Shown: positions 2,991-22,727 of the stretch, piece by piece
Layout of the letters: the number at the start of each line of letters is the position of its first letter
Position numbering within the stretch: position 1 is the first letter of the stretch
Assembly: GCF_000422425.1 (NCBI RefSeq)
Contig: NZ_AULT01000008.1
Location: 1 to 64,000 of the forward strand
Origin: Oceanospirillum beijerinckii DSM 7166
Lineage (GTDB): Bacteria > Pseudomonadota > Gammaproteobacteria > Pseudomonadales > Halomonadaceae
DNA: 64,000 nucleotides
Reading direction: 5' to 3'
Program-made: the position numbers and the translations under genes
Notes under the pieces: generated by a model
Databases searched by the model: none
The model's input: the letters and a program-made list of their open reading frames with translations, nothing else
Told to the model about the DNA's origin: nothing

Positions 2991-3145
2991 TGGCTTTTGA
3001 TTTTATCTCTGTGTTTTCAGCAATAGTTTAGTTTTTCTATCCTTAAATGACTCAATGTACAGAGGAAATGCCTGTTTTTAGTAGGCACAGCTCTTGCTCT
3101 AAGAAGAGTATAACGATTATTAATAAAAGCAATGGGGTGTGTTCT

Positions 3146-5350
3146 ATGGATGCGGCAAACGTACAGAGTAATCTGGACCTGGTCTGGATTATGGTCTGTG
3201 CCGCATTGGTGATGTTTATGCAGGCTGGATTTACTGCATTGGAGTCAGGACTGACACAAGCCAAAAACAGCATCAATGTGGCGATTAAAAATATTACCGA
3301 CTTTATAATCTCGGTATTGATCTTCTGGGCGGTGGGTTACGCGCTGATGTTTGGCGAGAGTTCAGGCGGTTTCTTTGGTACCAGTGGCTTTGGCCTGTCG
3401 GGTATGACTGAAGCCAGTGATTTTGCCTCCTTTGCCTTTCAGGCAACCTTCGCCGGTACAGCTGCGACGATTGTTTCCGGGGCCGTGGCGGAGCGAACCA
3501 AGTTTCTCGCTTATGTGGTGATCGCCGTTTTTACCATCTGTGTGATCTACCCAGTATCTGGTCACTGGATCTGGAACAGTGACGGCCGGCTGGCCCAGAA
3601 AGGTATGATCGACTTTGCAGGTTCTACCGTGGTGCACTCCTTAGGCGCCTGGGTTGGCTTGGCCGGTGCGATTGTAGTCGGTCCTCGTCTGGGGGTTTTT
3701 GGCAAAGAAGGCAAGGTCAATAAAATTCAGGGTCACAGTCTGGTTCTGGCCGTGGTTGGTGTGCTGATCCTATGGTTTGGCTGGTTTGGTTTTAATGGTG
3801 GAAGTACTCTGAGCGGTGATGCCAGTATCGCCAAGATTATTGCCAATACCATGCTAGCTGCCGGTGCCAGTGGCTTAAGTTGTTTCTTCATCTCTATGGC
3901 GTTGCACGAGCGTCGTGAAGTTAATGTTGAGAAACTGCTTAATGGTGTTGTCGGTGGTTTGGTCGCAATCACGGCAGGGTGTGCTGTTGTTGAACCCGTA
4001 GGCGCGGTGGTGATTGGCTTGATTGCAGGTACAGTGCTCTACGCTGCGGAGTGGATTATTCTGAATGTCCTGCGTGTTGATGATCCAGTGAATGTGGTCG
4101 CGGCCCATGGTATTTGCGGTGCGCTGGGTACCATTTTATTGGTGTTCTTTGCTTCGGAATCAGCACTGGTAAACGGTAGTGTGATGGATCAGTTGTTGGT
4201 TCAGCTGACAGGTGTGGCTGCGGTCTTTGTCTGGGGCTTTGGTCTGGGTTATCTGGCCTTCTCTCTGATGAAAGCCTTTGGCGCGCTGCGTGTACCGCCT
4301 GAGGATGAGGAGCGTGGGCTTAATGTGAGTGAACACGGTGCCAGCTCCTCTCTGCTGGATATGCAGGAAGCGATGCAGATGATTATGGAAGATGGAGACC
4401 TGACCCGCCGGGTAAAAGTGGAGCGCGGCAGTGAATATGAGCGTATCGCTGCTATCTTTAATCTCTTTCTCAGCAGCTATGAAAAAGCCATCGGTGATAT
4501 TAAGTTAGCATCCGGTGAGCTGAGCCGTTATGCCCAGGCGATGTCCGTGGCCAGCCATGAGCTGGAAAGTGGTGTCATCAATCAGAAGGCCCAAAGCTTA
4601 CAAATTACGGCAGCAATTACTCAGTTATCTGCGGCAGTTAAACAACTGGCCGCCAGTGTACGGGAAACCTCGGAGCAAACTCAGGAAGCCACACTGCAAT
4701 CATCCAATGGCCATGAGCTGGTGAAAAACAGTATACGTGATATTCATGCTCTGGCAGAGCGTATCTCTGCGGTCTATGACGTGACAGAACAGGTGGAAAG
4801 CGAAACTGCAGCGATTACCGGTATTCTGGAAACTATCGAAGGGGTTTCCGAGCAGACCAATCTATTAGCGTTGAATGCGGCGATTGAAGCCGCTCGTGCC
4901 GGTGAAGCTGGTCGGGGGTTTGCAGTGGTTGCTGATGAAGTGCGTGCGTTATCGCAACAGACGCAAGGCTATACCCGAACTATTCAGGAAACCATCACCC
5001 AATTGCAGAATAGAGTGCAAGATGCCGTGACCTTGGTACGCAGTGGTCATCAGTTAGCCGATAGTAGTGTCACGACGGTGAGTAGCTCAGGTGATGCCTT
5101 TGCTGCGATTAATACCATGGTGCATGCCATCAATCATAGTAGTGTAGAGATTGCGACCGTAGCGGAACAGCAGTCACAGATCGCTAATGAGGTGGACCAG
5201 AATATTCGTCAGATCGATCAGGTCGTACAGCAAACCGCTGATGAGGTCCATGCACTGAATGGTTTGGGCCAGAGTATCGAATCTTTGGCCAACGAACTCA
5301 ATGCGTCGGTATCGGGTTACTCCGTAGGTGCCTCAGGACTAACGCATTAA
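3146..5350 (+). CDS. ammonium transporter-chemoreceptor fusion (Amt-HAMP-like-MCP)
   Basis: 735 aa from the ATG at 3146. That start is preferred over an upstream one at 3047 because a GGGGTG ribosome-binding site precedes it and the Amt fold begins at once. Residues 1-380 form a complete Amt/AmtB domain with ~11 membrane spans. The AmtB key residues are all present: F102 and F216 (gate), W141 and S220 (external site), D156, and the twin histidines H164 and H321. Residues ~408-447 read as a HAMP-like second helix (DGDLTRRV). Residues ~450-735 form an MCP signalling hairpin with its tip at [20 protein letters not shown]. There is no periplasmic sensor domain, so the channel itself is presumably the sensor. 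Expected role: ammonium-responsive chemotaxis. Whether it also conducts ammonium is unknown. Confidence 0.93.
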
Positions 5351-16879: not shown

Positions 16880-18061
16880 TTAGTCCTTATTACGCAGGGC
16901 GATCACGCCACTGATCAATACCAGCGTTGTTACCATACCCGCCACCCCCGGCCACTGAGCGTGATCCCAGAAATAACCGCCTACGGCACCTAATACACTG
17001 GAGCCGACATAATAGAACAGTAGGTATAATGCTGAGGCTTGGGCTTTGTAGTGCTCTGCATTTTGCCCACAGGCACTACTGACGATGGAATGTGCGGCAA
17101 AAAAACCAAAGGTATATAGCCCCAATGCCATGATAATGGTGATCGGGTGCTCAAATAGACTGAGTACACTGCCGCATAGCATCAGTGTGATCGCCAGTAA
17201 CAGTACCGGTCGAGTCCCATAACGATCCGCTTTGGCTCCCAACCAGGTTGAGCTGAAAATCCCCAACAGATACAAACTGAACAACATGCCCAGGTGACTT
17301 TCACTTAACTGATAGGGCGCTTGCTGCAGGCGAAAACCGATATGGTTATACAGGGTGACCAGCCCGCCCATCAGTAAGAAACCGTGCATAAAACGGCCCA
17401 GTTGAGGCGGCTGTTTCAGGTGGTAAGTGAAACCCTGAATCATCTCCCGGCGGGAAAAGTGGCGGGGTGAAAAATGTTGGGAAACAGGTAGCGACCAGGC
17501 AAAAAACAGGGCGCATAACAGGCTGATGCCTGACAGAGTCTGCAGGGCAGTGGGCCAGTCATAGTGCTCTGTCAGATAGCCACTGATAATCCGGCCCATC
17601 ATACCGCCAATGGCGGTGCCGCTGACATAAAGCCCCATTGCCAACCCCCGGCAGCGGCTGTCGAACTCCTCATTAACATAGGTCATTGCGATAGAGGCCA
17701 GTCCTGCCAGGGTTAAACCCTGTAAACCCCGTAACAGCAGTAGCAGGATAAAGTGTTGGCTAAAACTTACAGCAAAGCCCAAGAGCGTGGTCAGCGCCAG
17801 TGAAGTCAGCATAATGGACTTACGCCCCAGTCGATCCGATAGCGCCGGGGTGAACAGCAGGCCTAAGGCCAGTGCTGCTGTTGAGACCGATAAGCTTAAA
17901 CTGGCGACCGCCGGAGACAGTTGAAACTGCTCGGCAAACAGGGGCAGCAACCCCTGAGTGCTGTACAGATTGGCGAAGGTGACAAAGGCCCCGGCGGTCA
18001 GCGCCAGACTGGCGCGCCAGAAAACTCGACTGTCTCTTTGAATATGACTCTGATTGGACAT
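16880..18061 (-). CDS. MFS transporter
   Basis: 393 aa with 12 predicted membrane helices. The MFS A-motif is present in the loop after TM2 (LSDRLGRKSIML) and a partial equivalent in the second half (GAKADRYGTRPVLLL). Length and pattern fit the YnfM/arabinose-efflux-like group. Substrate unknown. It starts five bases after the stop of the upstream chemoreceptor gene (18067-20052), so the two are very probably co-transcribed and may share a ligand. Confidence 0.9.
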   Translation of the reverse strand: MSNQSHIQRDSRVFWRASLALTAGAFVTFANLYSTQGLLPLFAEQFQLSPAVASLSLSVSTAALALGLLFTPALSDRLGRKSIMLTSLALTTLLGFAVSFSQHFILLLLLRGLQGLTLAGLASIAMTYVNEEFDSRCRGLAMGLYVSGTAIGGMMGRIISGYLTEHYDWPTALQTLSGISLLCALFFAWSLPVSQHFSPRHFSRREMIQGFTYHLKQPPQLGRFMHGFLLMGGLVTLYNHIGFRLQQAPYQLSESHLGMLFSLYLLGIFSSTWLGAKADRYGTRPVLLLAITLMLCGSVLSLFEHPITIIMALGLYTFGFFAAHSIVSSACGQNAEHYKAQASALYLLFYYVGSSVLGAVGGYFWDHAQWPGVAGMVTTLVLISGVIALRNKD

Positions 18062-18066
18062 GAGAT

Positions 18067-20052
18067 TTACTCGGTACGGAATTGACGGGCCATCTGTTGC
18101 AGTTCCTGGCTGAGCTGGTTAAGCATCAGGCAGGCTTGGGCACTTTCGCCTGTGGCCTGAGCCCCCTCGTTCAGTGTCTGTTGTAATGCGCGGCTTTGTT
18201 GCTGCAACGCGGTCACTTCCTGTTGTTGATTGGCGGACTGTTCCGCAATGGCCTGAATCTGCTGCCGGGTTTGCTGTGCGCTGGCCAGAATTTGTTGTAA
18301 AACCTGACGGGTTGCTTCCGCCTGTTGCTGGGTTTGGCCCGAATGCTGCTGTAAGCGGGTCATCTGCTGGCAGGTGTGCTGCATCTGTTGACTGACCTGT
18401 CCTATAATGCTGACAATCTGTTCTGTCATCTGGTGTGTACGGCCTGAAAGATGACGCACCTCATCAGCCACAACCGCAAAACCACGACCATGCTCTCCGG
18501 CCCGCGCCGCTTCAATGGCAGCATTCAGTGCCAGCAGACTGGTTTGATCGGCGATACCCTGAATATCGTCAGTGATATCACTGATCCTTGCCGTTTGCCG
18601 ATTCAGACTGTCTACCTGTTCTGAACACTGCTCCAGTTGGTCAGACAGATGTTGCAGGGATTGATTAGTCTGCTCAATCTGAGCCTGCCCTGATATGGCA
18701 TCCTGTTCGGCTTCTACGCTGGCGTGATTGGCCTGACGGGCATTGTGTTCGATTTGGTCAATCTGTTCCACCAGTTGGTGAATCGCCTGATCGATGGTGT
18801 GGACGCTTTGCTGCTGCAGCCTAGCATTCGCAACACTCTGTTCGCTATGGCTGGCCAACTGATTGCTGGCGCTGGCCAAATGATCGGTAACACCGGTCAG
18901 GCGGCGCATCATCTGCTGTAACTGAGCAATAAAGGCATTAAAAGCCTGTGCAATCTGACTCAGCTCCCTTCCGCCCTGTTCCGGCAGGCGCGCAGTGAGA
19001 TCACCATCACCGGAAGCGATATCCGTTAAACGCTGATGTAACTGCAGTAGCACTTTGCGGATATTGTGGCTGATAAAAAAGGCCAGCAGCAGACCCAGTA
19101 CACCGGCGATTGCGCTGGTGCCCATCAGTCCCATCCGGGTTTGCTGAGTTAACGTCTGTACCGTATGGGTTGTGTCGTCCAGCAGCTGCACAATCCCTTG
19201 ATTGAGCTGCAGTGCAGCCTGAGCGATCTCCTCGCTGGTCTGGTCCAGTTGCTGCTGTGCTTGATTGCGCCGTTCTGTCAGGGTGATCGCTTCATGGGTG
19301 ATCTGTTCCAGGCTGTGTAGTGACGCTTGCAGTTGTTCGATGCGTCGAGCCAGTTTGTTGTCTGGTGTCGATCCGGTTTCCTGTGCGGCGGATCTCAGCT
19401 GTGACAGATAATGCTGAGTTTCGCCCTGATAAAACTCGGCTTCGGCCAGCTGATCGTTGTGGCGATTACTGAGATAGTGGTGCAGATAGATACGGGCCTG
19501 CTGGAATGCGGCTTGTAGCTGGTTAGCCGGAATAAGTAAGCTTGCCTGATCGACGGATACGGCTCGGTCTACCAGTTTTTTCAGGGCGCGATCCGTACCT
19601 CGGGAAGCCGATTCAAGATTTTCACGCAGGTTCTGCTGATGGTTCATCAAATCCACTAAGCGATCACTGAACAGGGTGGAGTAGCTTAGATTGAGTTGGC
19701 GAATCTGTGCTAAAACCGCTTGTTGCTGATCGTTCGACAGATCAGGTTTTAGTTGAGCCAGATTATTCTCAAAGGCTTTTTCACGATCAGCAAACTGCTG
19801 CAGTAACAGTGGCTGCGGATTCTGTTGGTAGTTCAGTACCAGAATGCGTTGACCGGCCAGATACTGGCTGACAGCCTGGGCTTGTGCTGTTACCGGTGCG
19901 ATTCGGGTCGTCACCTGGCTGACATCATTATTAATGCGCTGCAGCGAAAACAGGGCGATCACACTGACCAATACCAATAACAGTAAAATACTGATTGGAG
20001 AAATCAGAACCCGGCTGGTAATCGACAGCGGGTTCAGGCTTGGGATTGTCAT
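18067..20052 (-). CDS. methyl-accepting chemotaxis protein, helical periplasmic sensor
   Basis: 661 aa. TM1 is ~16-36. A ~265-residue all-helical, Gln/Leu-rich periplasmic region follows, whose size fits a helical-bimodular (HBM) sensor. TM2 is ~305-328, then HAMP ([19 protein letters not shown]) and an MCP hairpin with tip [23 protein letters not shown] receptors elsewhere bind TCA intermediates or other organic acids. The assignment here rests on size and helicity only. First gene of a two-gene operon with the MFS transporter. Confidence 0.93.
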
Positions 20053-20236: not shown

Positions 20237-20941
20237 TTGTCGCCGGAACGTTTTGCCAAAATTAAAGAAGTACTGAATCGACGTCAGCCTGATCTGACCG
20301 TGATCACCGATAACGTCCACAAATCCCGTAATCTGTCGGCGATTGTGCGCACCTGTGATGCGGTGGGTATTTCCCATGTACATTCGGCTGATCCCGATGA
20401 TGGTTTTGGCACGCATCATGGCACTGCAAAAGGCAGCCATCGCTGGGTCAAGGTGAGTATCTATGAGGGCGTTGAAAAACCGATTAGCCTGCTGCAGTCC
20501 CAAGGCTTTAAAGTCTATGCGGCGACACTCAGTGACCGTGCGGTGGATTACCGCACTCTGGACTACACTCAGCCCAGTGCAATCCTGTTAGGGGCAGAGA
20601 AATGGGGTGTCAGTGAGACTGCCGTTGATATGGCCGATGAGCATATTATCGTCCCCATGATGGGGATGGTGGAGTCCTATAATGTCTCCGTTGCCGGTGC
20701 GATCATTCTGGCAGAGGCACAGCGGCAACGGGATCTGGCCGGTCTATACAATGAATCCCGTATGGACCCGGAGCTGTATGAGAAAACCCTGTTTGAATGG
20801 GCGCAACCCCAGATCGCTCAGTTCTGCAAAGACCGCCGTCTGGCTTATCCTGAGTTAACTGAAGACGGTGATATCGTCAATCCATCCGAATGGTACCGGA
20901 TGGTACGGGAAGAGAAAGCCCGTAAAGGAAAATGGGGTTAA
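20237..20941 (+). CDS. trmH: tRNA (guanosine-18-2'-O)-methyltransferase TrmH
   Basis: 234 aa SpoU/SPOUT methyltransferase that 2'-O-methylates G18 of tRNA using S-adenosylmethionine. Three SPOUT motifs are present: NLSAIVRTCDAVGI near residue 31, AILLGAEKWGVSE near 114, and MVESYNVSVAGAIIL near 142, which form the trefoil-knot cofactor site. The start is a TTG at 20237 with GGGAG seven bases upstream. The product aligns from its first residues with known TrmH. Monocistronic. Confidence 0.93.
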   Translation: MSPERFAKIKEVLNRRQPDLTVITDNVHKSRNLSAIVRTCDAVGISHVHSADPDDGFGTHHGTAKGSHRWVKVSIYEGVEKPISLLQSQGFKVYAATLSDRAVDYRTLDYTQPSAILLGAEKWGVSETAVDMADEHIIVPMMGMVESYNVSVAGAIILAEAQRQRDLAGLYNESRMDPELYEKTLFEWAQPQIAQFCKDRRLAYPELTEDGDIVNPSEWYRMVREEKARKGKWG

Positions 20942-21096
20942 TGGGAGGAAGCTATCTTGAGTGAATCTTGTACAGGCCGTTATCGAAGGGATAAGTGAGC
21001 ATCGGCTATAAATTCTGTACAAAAAGCCCTAACTCTTTGCTCAGGCTTCTGCTATTTTGAGGGCTTCTTACCGACAGCCGAAAAAAGGAAAGCACA

Positions 21097-22188
21097 ATGG
21101 CTATGGCAGAAGCCCCGAGCTTGTTTGATGCCAGGATCGTTGCAAAATCGATCAAAATTGCCCTGATTGTGGGCACTCTTCTTAACCTGATTAACCAAGG
21201 TAATGCCCTGTGGGGGGCTGCCAGCTTCCAGGTTGTTCCTGCATTACTGACCTATCTGGTACCTTTCTGCGTCTCTTTGTTCAGTGCTTACAGTAGCCTG
21301 AAACACGCTTATGAATGTCAGCTTGAGCAACAGCAGAACCGTGCCAGTCAGAGTCAGCCGCTGGAGCAGATTGGTTCAGCGGTCAGTCGTCTGGAAATAT
21401 CGGCCAAAGAAGTTTGTGGTAATGCTATGCGGGTCAATGAGCGCTCCCGTGCGCGGGTGTCATTTGCAGCGGAAGCTGTAGACCTGTCCAAATCCGTGTC
21501 CAGCGATTCCAGTCAGGTCGGTGGTGAAGTGGAAACCGCATCTGAACAGATCAAAGCGCTGAACACACAAATGTCAGAACTGGATCGTCAGAACCGTTCC
21601 TTTACCCAGGAGTTTGAGCAGGCCTCAAATTGGGCGCGGGAGCTGCTGACAGATACGCAAAAATTTACCAGTGAGTTTGAAAAGGTCGAGAATATCGCCT
21701 CGACTATCACCGGCATCGCCGAGCAAACCAACCTGCTGGCTCTGAATGCGTCTATCGAAGCAGCCCGTGCCGGTGAAGCGGGTCGTGGTTTTGCCGTAGT
21801 GGCGGATGAGGTTAAGAGTCTGGCTAATAAATCCGGTGAATATGCGGGTGAAATCAATAGCCTGATGGCAGTATTGAGCAAAACCAGCCAAATACTGTCT
21901 GATAAGGTACTGCGTTTCTCGGAATCTATGGATGAACTGTTGGAACAGCGCAGTGACGACAGTATCAAGCAGATCGAAAGCTCAATTTACTCCCTGCAGA
22001 ATACCATGGTCTCGGTTTCTCAACTGGCTAACAGCCAGATCAGCCAGATGCAAACGGTAGTGGATAAAGTAGAGCAGATGGCTTCTGATGCTCAGGCCGC
22101 TGTCGATGGCTCTGCCACCAATATGAATCTGAGCCAGCAGATTGCCGGTGAGCTGGAGCAATTAAGAGGTTTAACGCTGTCTCGTTGA
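21097..22188 (+). CDS. NrtS-like transporter segment fused to an MCP signalling domain
   Basis: 363 aa. The N-terminus (residues ~14-70) has two membrane helices with the pattern of NrtS-type nitrate/nitrite transporters: [20 protein letters not shown], then [19 protein letters not shown]. No periplasmic sensor domain or HAMP is present. Residues ~90-363 form a short MCP hairpin with tip [20 protein letters not shown] near residue 209. GGAAAG precedes the ATG. The design implies that the two-helix segment binds or passes the ligand and the MCP half reports it to a chemotaxis kinase. The nitrate/nitrite assignment rests on recognition of the helix pattern and is inference. Monocistronic, with a strong terminator. 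Confidence 0.85.
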
Positions 22189-22235
22189 AGTAGATCGCTT
22201 AGCCTGTGCTTGAGTCCTGTTTTTGTTGATTAAAG

Positions 22236-22282
22236 CGGCCTGCCAACTCTATGTTTCCTGAGTGGCAGGCCGTTCTGGTTTT
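22236..22282. terminator. terminator after the NrtS-MCP gene
   Basis: CGGCCTGCCA (22236-22245) pairs with TGGCAGGCCG (22263-22272), followed by TTCTGGTTTTT. It lies between converging genes. Confidence 0.85.
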
Positions 22283-22298
22283 TGGCTGCTTTATCAGT

Positions 22299-22727
22299 TT
22301 AATGGCTCTGGACCAGGGGGATCTCACCGTTATCTGTCTTGTTGTTTAATAGCTGTTCCATGGCTTGCTCTGCCTGAGCGTGATCAAAGCGTTGGGGTAA
22401 CAGGTCCAGCTGTTCGGCCGCGCTTTTCTGTTTGTGGATCTGCTGCCAGTTCGTCAGCCATTGCTGCCAGCTTTGTTCATTTTCCGGGCCAGTGTAGTGT
22501 GGCATCTGGCTAAGCAGATGGGTGGCGGCGAGTTCAAAGCCGTTGGTCCAGTCGCTGTTCAGTACGGTTTCCAGGTCACTGACGCTGAGTACATCGTGGG
22601 CATCGCGGGCCAGCCAGCCTTTCAGGCCTGCGGTATCGGCCAGGATACGAATTAATAGTGGCTCATCTCCCTGGGCCAGTGCAAACCATTGCTTGATTGC
22701 GTAAAGATGGGATGGGATTTGCGTCAT
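22299..22727 (-). CDS. uncharacterised helical cytoplasmic protein
   Basis: 142 aa, rich in Gln, Leu and Trp, without signal peptide or membrane segment. It is predicted largely helical (SHLYAIKQWFALAQGDEPLLIRI; QSWQQWLTNWQQIHKQKS). I do not recognise the family. Codon use resembles the neighbours and a GGTGG lies just before the ATG, which supports a real gene. Function unknown. Confidence 0.65.
   Translation of the reverse strand: MTQIPSHLYAIKQWFALAQGDEPLLIRILADTAGLKGWLARDAHDVLSVSDLETVLNSDWTNGFELAATHLLSQMPHYTGPENEQSWQQWLTNWQQIHKQKSAAEQLDLLPQRFDHAQAEQAMEQLLNNKTDNGEIPLVQSH

Follow-up and report, generated by a model that had tools for sequence, protein, structure and literature searches.

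An NrtS-family membrane module as the probable input domain of a class of small chemoreceptors

The main finding of this study is that the gene at positions 21097-22188 (+) of the window, by which we mean the whole 64,000-nucleotide stretch of Oceanospirillum beijerinckii DSM 7166 DNA that was analysed, encodes a protein of 363 amino acids with an ATG start in which a head of the NrtS nitrate/nitrite transporter family is fused to the signalling half of a chemoreceptor (MCP). The same kind of fusion occurs in 15 genomes of seven families, and in further genomes the two partners are encoded by adjoining genes. The pairing of NrtS with this class of MCP is nearly certain, and judging from the sequences compared here a dedicated class of chemoreceptors very probably has the NrtS head as its input module. 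We also consider it rather probable that the window protein works as proposed below, that is, as a small chemoreceptor in which a repurposed NrtS-family membrane module is the input domain.

The window gene and its NrtS-type head

The head of the window protein comprises residues 12-68 (21130-21300, +), as delimited by a profile match, hydropathy and alignment A2, and consists of two hydrophobic helices separated by a short loop, both hydrophobic stretches being visible in a plain hydropathy plot. Residue counts over 91 heads define a signature in each helix, with the pattern VG......N-Q in helix 1 (V25-G26 and N33-Q34; 21169-21198, +) and LTY.VP..V in helix 2 (L51, P56 and V59; 21247-21273, +). 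NrtS proteins are characterised by a pair of helices in some 55-70 residues and by conserved G, N-Q and P; hydropathy shows the helix pair here, and the alignments and residue counts show the conserved residues. With positions 2-53 of its 56, the NCBIfam model of the family, NF038050, matches residues 18-67 of the whole protein (37.0 bits, E 2.3e-9), while residues 1-83 alone score 40.4 bits (E 2e-10), both above the curated cut-off of 25. The preliminary description, which had recognised an NrtS-type helix pair from the letters, is borne out by these profile scores. It had also taken the remainder for an MCP hairpin with neither HAMP nor periplasmic sensor, and this reading holds as well: PF00015 (MCPsignal) matches residues 145-330 (E 7.9e-30; 104.4 bits against a cut-off of 34.6), and neither HAMP nor a periplasmic domain appears among the 25 families listed of 27 matching at E<=10. 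With its two helices, short loop and neither of these domains listed, the window receptor departs from the classical transmembrane MCP layout. In Pfam-A no family matches residues 1-83, so that an annotation from Pfam alone would overlook the NrtS head. None of the solved structures matches the head, and a structure model of the window protein (mean pLDDT 65.7, from a 2-row alignment) is too weak for geometry.

Behind the head lies a variable linker (residues 69-100; 21301-21396, +), defined by its identity to the O. sediminis copy and by the P56-N114 spacing. It is followed by a membrane-proximal motif on the N-arm of the hairpin, NAxxVNxxSxxR (residues 109-120; 21421-21456, +; alignment A3), by the tip region (residues 191-260; 21667-21876, +; PF00015 and identity to O. 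sediminis) and by a second motif on the C-arm, GSAxNM (residues 338-343; 22108-22125, +; alignment A3), which would lie roughly level with the N-arm motif provided that the hairpin folds in the usual way. The copy in O. sediminis D5 is 73% identical over residues 1-360, with 42/57 identical positions in the head, 8/31 in the linker and 70/70 in the tip region. Between these two species the first transmembrane segment (TM1) of a neighbouring ordinary MCP is identical at 25/35 positions, suggesting that the head is hardly more conserved than an ordinary TM1. No dN/dS is claimed, because synonymous sites (dS) are largely saturated.

A single NrtS match in the window genome (G000) exceeds the cut-off. 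A AAGGAAAG-like stretch lies directly upstream of the ORF 21097-22188 (+), and Rfam gives no match at gathering scores over 20900-22400. As a side observation, this genome of 5.3 Mb has 77 matches to the window protein, nearly all of them to its MCP half, and five of these are located within the first 27 kb of the window.

Fused, split and tandem forms linked to one MCP class

The 15 fusions were identified in loci whose long frames were read. Eight of the fused heads clearly pass the curated cut-off of 25 bits (G000, G391, G440, G090, G631, G533, G531 and G530), one is borderline (G526, 24.7-25 bits) and six fall below it (G571, G724, G791, G704, G841 and G1095; 16.0-24.1 bits), G1095 being the weakest and also lacking P56. 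These six heads were assigned through a custom NrtS profile, with E-values of 3e-7 or better, and through their MCP halves; the exception as to the custom profile is G571, which came from the NF038050 survey of another family (144 genomes). Chance likeness of two hydrophobic helices is ruled out by the profile scores and the spread across families, and an assembly artefact by the occurrence of the fusion in 15 genomes.

NrtS itself is more widespread. Surveys with NF038050 at E<=0.01 found it in 57 of 390 genomes of the order, in 6 of 151 of the family, and in 26 of 144 and 10 of 22 genomes of two other families, and surveys with alignment A2 at E<=0.001 found it in 32 of 369 genomes of the class and 36 of 398 of the phylum. 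The survey sets overlap, so that some genomes are counted more than once; the E-values are per genome, and the candidates scored per genome numbered 16 in the order and phylum surveys and 17 in the class survey, all candidates being scored in the family surveys. A profile built from 11 fused heads (10 fused to MCPs, one to GGDEF-EAL) recovers stand-alone NrtS proteins with E-values from 5e-28 to 1.5e-6, and 68 of the 91 heads in our tree are stand-alone, with no MCP-class gene in the flank that was read. An ordinary MCP is found near three stand-alone loci, always on the opposite strand, and none of them scores as a class member (89 bits against the MCP class at L012; 112-113 bits at L044 and L081, which belong to the same genome).

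Several other candidate fusions were rejected. In G186, G168 and G324 the NrtS frame is preceded by an open frame or ends in a short tail, G559, G777, G772 and G853 have frames upstream, G071 and G307 are other proteins, and G489 has no NrtS. At L090 NrtS is in frame with a sigma factor and a stop cuts the NrtS start. In G184 (L036:4390-6210, +) an NrtS head is fused to GGDEF and EAL domains, with no MCP.

The signature residues of the head are strongly conserved. G26 and N33 are present in 91/91 heads and P56 in 90/91, the exception being the fused head of G1095, so that the fused heads have G, N and Q in 15/15 and P in 14/15. In alignment A2, seven fused heads from outside the genus retain the signature at 28-45% identity to the window head. 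Position 34 is Q in 15/15 fused heads and in 6/7 split or tandem ones (21/22 receptor-linked heads in all), and the residues of the 68 stand-alone heads are Q (40 heads), H (19), Y (8) and N (1). Q may be a receptor-specific choice at this position, on counts that are uncorrected for kinship. In the head tree (91 heads, 63 columns, duplicate loci removed) the fused heads do not form one clade: the fused label requires 8 changes, at least 4 of them forced by starred branches, which suggests that heads may have been exchanged or fused on several occasions.

The MCP halves form a class of their own, and this class, as far as our samples go, is linked to NrtS. In alignment A3, which has 17 rows (15 fused and 2 split proteins), the A, V, N, S and R of the N-arm motif are invariant in 17/17 rows; in GSAxNM the S and N are invariant over the 17 rows and the G is nearly so. 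In 22 of 23 fused, split and tandem proteins the Asn of the N-arm motif precedes the tip Glu by exactly 107 residues, the exception being a copy in G535 with a deletion in the tip; in G1433 the final R of the motif is replaced by K. At the class position the motif occurs in 0 of 34 other MCPs with a readable tip. Leave-one-out profiles, for which the window protein and its two nearest relatives were removed together, give class members 161-271 bits (lowest for G1095, 161 bits) and 35 other MCPs at most 145; these 35 were taken from the loci collected for this study, and many were the top matches without NrtS in a search of 293 genomes. That search, carried out with the MCP-class profile in genomes of the class with 8 candidates scored per genome, returned five fusions at 273-316 bits and the next MCP at 145; since the five fusions were themselves rows of the profile, it speaks for exclusivity and not for discovery.

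NrtS and a soluble MCP are encoded by adjoining genes in six further genomes, and two genomes have a tandem pair. In G408, which belongs to the window genus, the two genes follow one another on the same strand in head-to-tail order. Measured from stop to stop, the frames share 4 bp, and 43 bp separate the NrtS stop from the first ATG of the MCP. In G1280, from another order, the two frames are 4 bp apart. The soluble partners in both genomes are PF00015 proteins. When the MCP half alone was searched against 152 genomes of the order of G1280, with 16 candidates scored per genome, five matches were obtained at E<=1e-42, and an NrtS gene adjoined the match in 5/5 cases; four of these proteins were not part of the profile and one (G1280) was a profile row. 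At one chromosomal site NrtS comes first in two genomes and the MCP first in three. That partners fused in one lineage are separate neighbours elsewhere, in either order, is strong evidence that they form one functional unit. These fused, split and tandem arrangements, all linked to one MCP class, lend support to the earlier suggestion that the transporter fold, as the head, does the sensing.

The reversal of gene order between genera at the conserved site was noted at L156-L159 and L096. By eye, a MotB-like gene is found near the NrtS/MCP pair at 5/5 of these loci, and the one scanned has MotB_plug and OmpA domains. The tandem pairs are found in G535 (L082) and G534 (L161). In both, a gene for a 144-residue NrtS protein is followed by an MCP gene, and the head of that MCP no longer has the signature. 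Against the custom NrtS profile this head reaches 6 bits in G535, and in G534 it is missing from the matches listed at E<=10; the tip lacks four residues in the G535 copy and is complete in the G534 copy. The 2019 NrtS paper by Maeda et al. is said to describe transporters that can comprise two different small subunits (NrtS1/NrtS2).

Proposed mechanism, ligand and alternative readings

In the mechanism that we propose, the MCP homodimer would join two NrtS hairpins into a four-helix membrane unit whose two ends both face the cytoplasm. A small solute that binds or passes at the conserved G, N-Q and P sites would shift the helices, and this change would be relayed, through the flexible linker in the fusions or, where the genes are split, by docking, to the conserved membrane-proximal patch formed by NAxxVNxxSxxR with GSAxNM. 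With the head moving or docking onto it, the patch would fill the role that HAMP has elsewhere and alter the control of CheA at the tip. By its distance from the tip, the patch corresponds to the region in which HAMP joins the coil in ordinary receptors such as Tsr. A fixed spacing from motif to tip combined with a variable linker between head and motif is counted in favour of the head as an input module. Because the linker varies in both length and sequence, a rigid helix from the membrane to the coil is unlikely, and rigid heptad coupling of head to coil is disfavoured, the P56-N114 spacing being 45-60 in the 14 fusions measured (L094, without P56, was left out).

An NrtS-type anion, nitrite or nitrate, is our leading guess for the solute, a tentative one that is taken solely from the family name. 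Taxis to nitrate or nitrite, as envisaged in the preliminary description, finds little encouragement in the genomes. At E<=1e-10 the window genome has three molybdopterin enzymes, and their best models are formate dehydrogenase alpha subunit (Fdh-alpha, 897 bits), the BisC/TMAO reductase type (898 bits, under its cut-off of 1018) and Fdh-alpha again, for a piece of 447 residues; nitrate-reductase models score lower on both Fdh-like enzymes and are not listed for the BisC/TMAO-type one. No NapA above cut-off was found in this genome. Among 18 receptor genomes searched for NapA (of 23), ten had no match listed, and of the eight with a listed match two exceeded the cut-off, namely G090 and G535. 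A formate dehydrogenase of the window genome scores 216 bits with the NapA model and yet is unlisted in this search, which is therefore no test for NasA; an enzyme of G391 with 231 bits, which could be either a formate dehydrogenase or NasA, is likewise unlisted. Three of the 18 genomes (G533, G531 and G1095) have molybdopterin frames as long as NarG (1267-1302 aa). The NapA or NarG-length frames in G090, G535, G533, G531 and G1095 favour nitrate in those hosts. Around 38 stand-alone NrtS loci, 104 neighbouring frames (at most 3 per locus, within about 1.5 kb) were matched to families, and no nitrate or nitrite reductase is found among the best 25 of 605 and the best 25 of 89 families listed, one set per library. 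The head may well sense something other than nitrate or nitrite.

A broader reading is that NrtS is chiefly a general minimal transmembrane sensor, serving chemotaxis, cyclic-di-GMP enzymes and ECF-type sigma factors, and acting also in trans. We regard this as possible, although we would not presume it; if true, such a general sensory NrtS would be one of the smallest membrane sensors. Rather unlikely is another idea, in which the head of the receptor would respond not to a nutrient but to a small molecule that is reactive or toxic (reactive nitrogen, chlorine or the like). It draws on a supported NrtS clade (14 rows, 99/94) in which a sigma factor lies within 250 bp or in frame at 8 of 14 loci, and on the neighbours of stand-alone NrtS genes, where 3 of 104 frames are ChrR-cupin proteins and 5-7 are disulphide oxidoreductases. 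However, the sigma-factor clade is another branch than that of the window head, and the genes around the window fusion are a SpoU methylase, an ORF without assignment and an aminotransferase.

The sigma-linked loci are L081, L084, L085, L095, L057, L060, L022 and L090, the last one in frame. All six sigma frames scanned near NrtS have Sigma70 regions 2 and 4 (6/6, ECF-type). By eye, a small anti-sigma-like ORF is often found near sigma-linked NrtS, the one scanned having no Pfam match, and some of the loci lie near genes resembling a bufferin-type cluster.

A further alternative, which we consider unlikely, is that the NrtS hairpin is a passive anchor that merely tethers a cytoplasmic MCP, the signal itself being cytosolic, e.g. 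redox or energy state. The absence of a listed periplasmic domain, the variable spacing between head and motif and a pairwise constraint on the head that resembles that of an ordinary TM1 are all consistent with such a role. However, a plain anchor should be exchangeable for any hairpin, whereas this MCP class is specific to NrtS, even where the genes are separate and in either order (5/5), and 15/15 fused heads from 7 families retain the signature's G, N and Q.

It is more improbable still that the head is a true transceptor, which would continue to transport nitrate or nitrite while the MCP reports the flux. The family name and signature, the NapA of G090 and G535 and the NarG-length frames of G533, G531 and G1095 among the 18 genomes searched would fit this idea, as would the tandem pairs of G534 and G535, which recall the reportedly two-gene NrtS1/NrtS2 transporters. 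Against it, the window genome's three molybdopterin enzymes include no recognised nitrate reductase, only two of the 18 receptor genomes examined have NapA above its cut-off, and no nitrate genes are among the families listed beside stand-alone NrtS. It is also countered by the precedent of Ks-Amt5, which is described as lacking efficient translocation (PMC5764959). By analogy with that protein, the NrtS head of our preferred reading probably senses rather than transports.

Relation to known systems

The window head shares sequence, size, two helices and signature residues with the NrtS family (NF038050). Unlike the NrtS transporters, it is joined to an MCP half, and no nitrate gene neighbourhood was seen. 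The clearest precedent for a transporter fold used as a sensor and wired to a signalling domain is Ks-Amt5, in which an ammonium-transporter domain fused to a histidine kinase binds its ligand and controls the kinase without PAS, HAMP or STAC (PMC5764959). The two differ in architecture, since Ks-Amt5 combines an eleven-helix Amt trimer with a kinase, whereas the window receptor combines a two-helix module with a chemoreceptor. McpN resembles the window receptor in being a chemoreceptor, and nitrate, its ligand, is the one proposed for the window receptor; in contrast, McpN binds nitrate in a PilJ-type periplasmic domain (PMC6381276), and no periplasmic domain is listed for the window receptor. 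The hairpin with its conserved tip and its PF00015 match is shared with classical receptors (Tsr/Tar) and soluble MCPs, from which the window receptor is set apart by its own membrane-proximal motif, its NrtS-derived head and the lack of any listed HAMP or periplasmic domain. Our literature search, with most subscription journals outside its reach, found no paper linking NrtS with chemoreceptors.

If our reading is right, these proteins would represent a chemoreceptor class in which a transporter-type module of about 55 residues replaces both the periplasmic sensor and HAMP. The existence of fused, split and tandem forms in nature makes communication between membrane module and coiled coil testable with separate genes. 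The poorly characterised NrtS family would gain a second role, and the name 'nitrate transporter', where assigned automatically, may conceal sensors.

Two further gene arrangements in the window were noted. At 3047-5350 (+) an ammonium-transporter domain (PF00909, residues 46-433, 379 bits) is followed by MCPsignal at residues 547-727. This Amt-MCP fusion likewise combines a nitrogen-related transporter fold with an MCP signalling domain, but the fold is another one; in one review and one paper that were searched, no chemotaxis terms were found. At 16880-20052 (-) a HAMP-MCP gene is followed, after a gap of a few bases on the same strand, by a gene for an MFS transporter, and it is possible that the two form a transporter-receptor pair.
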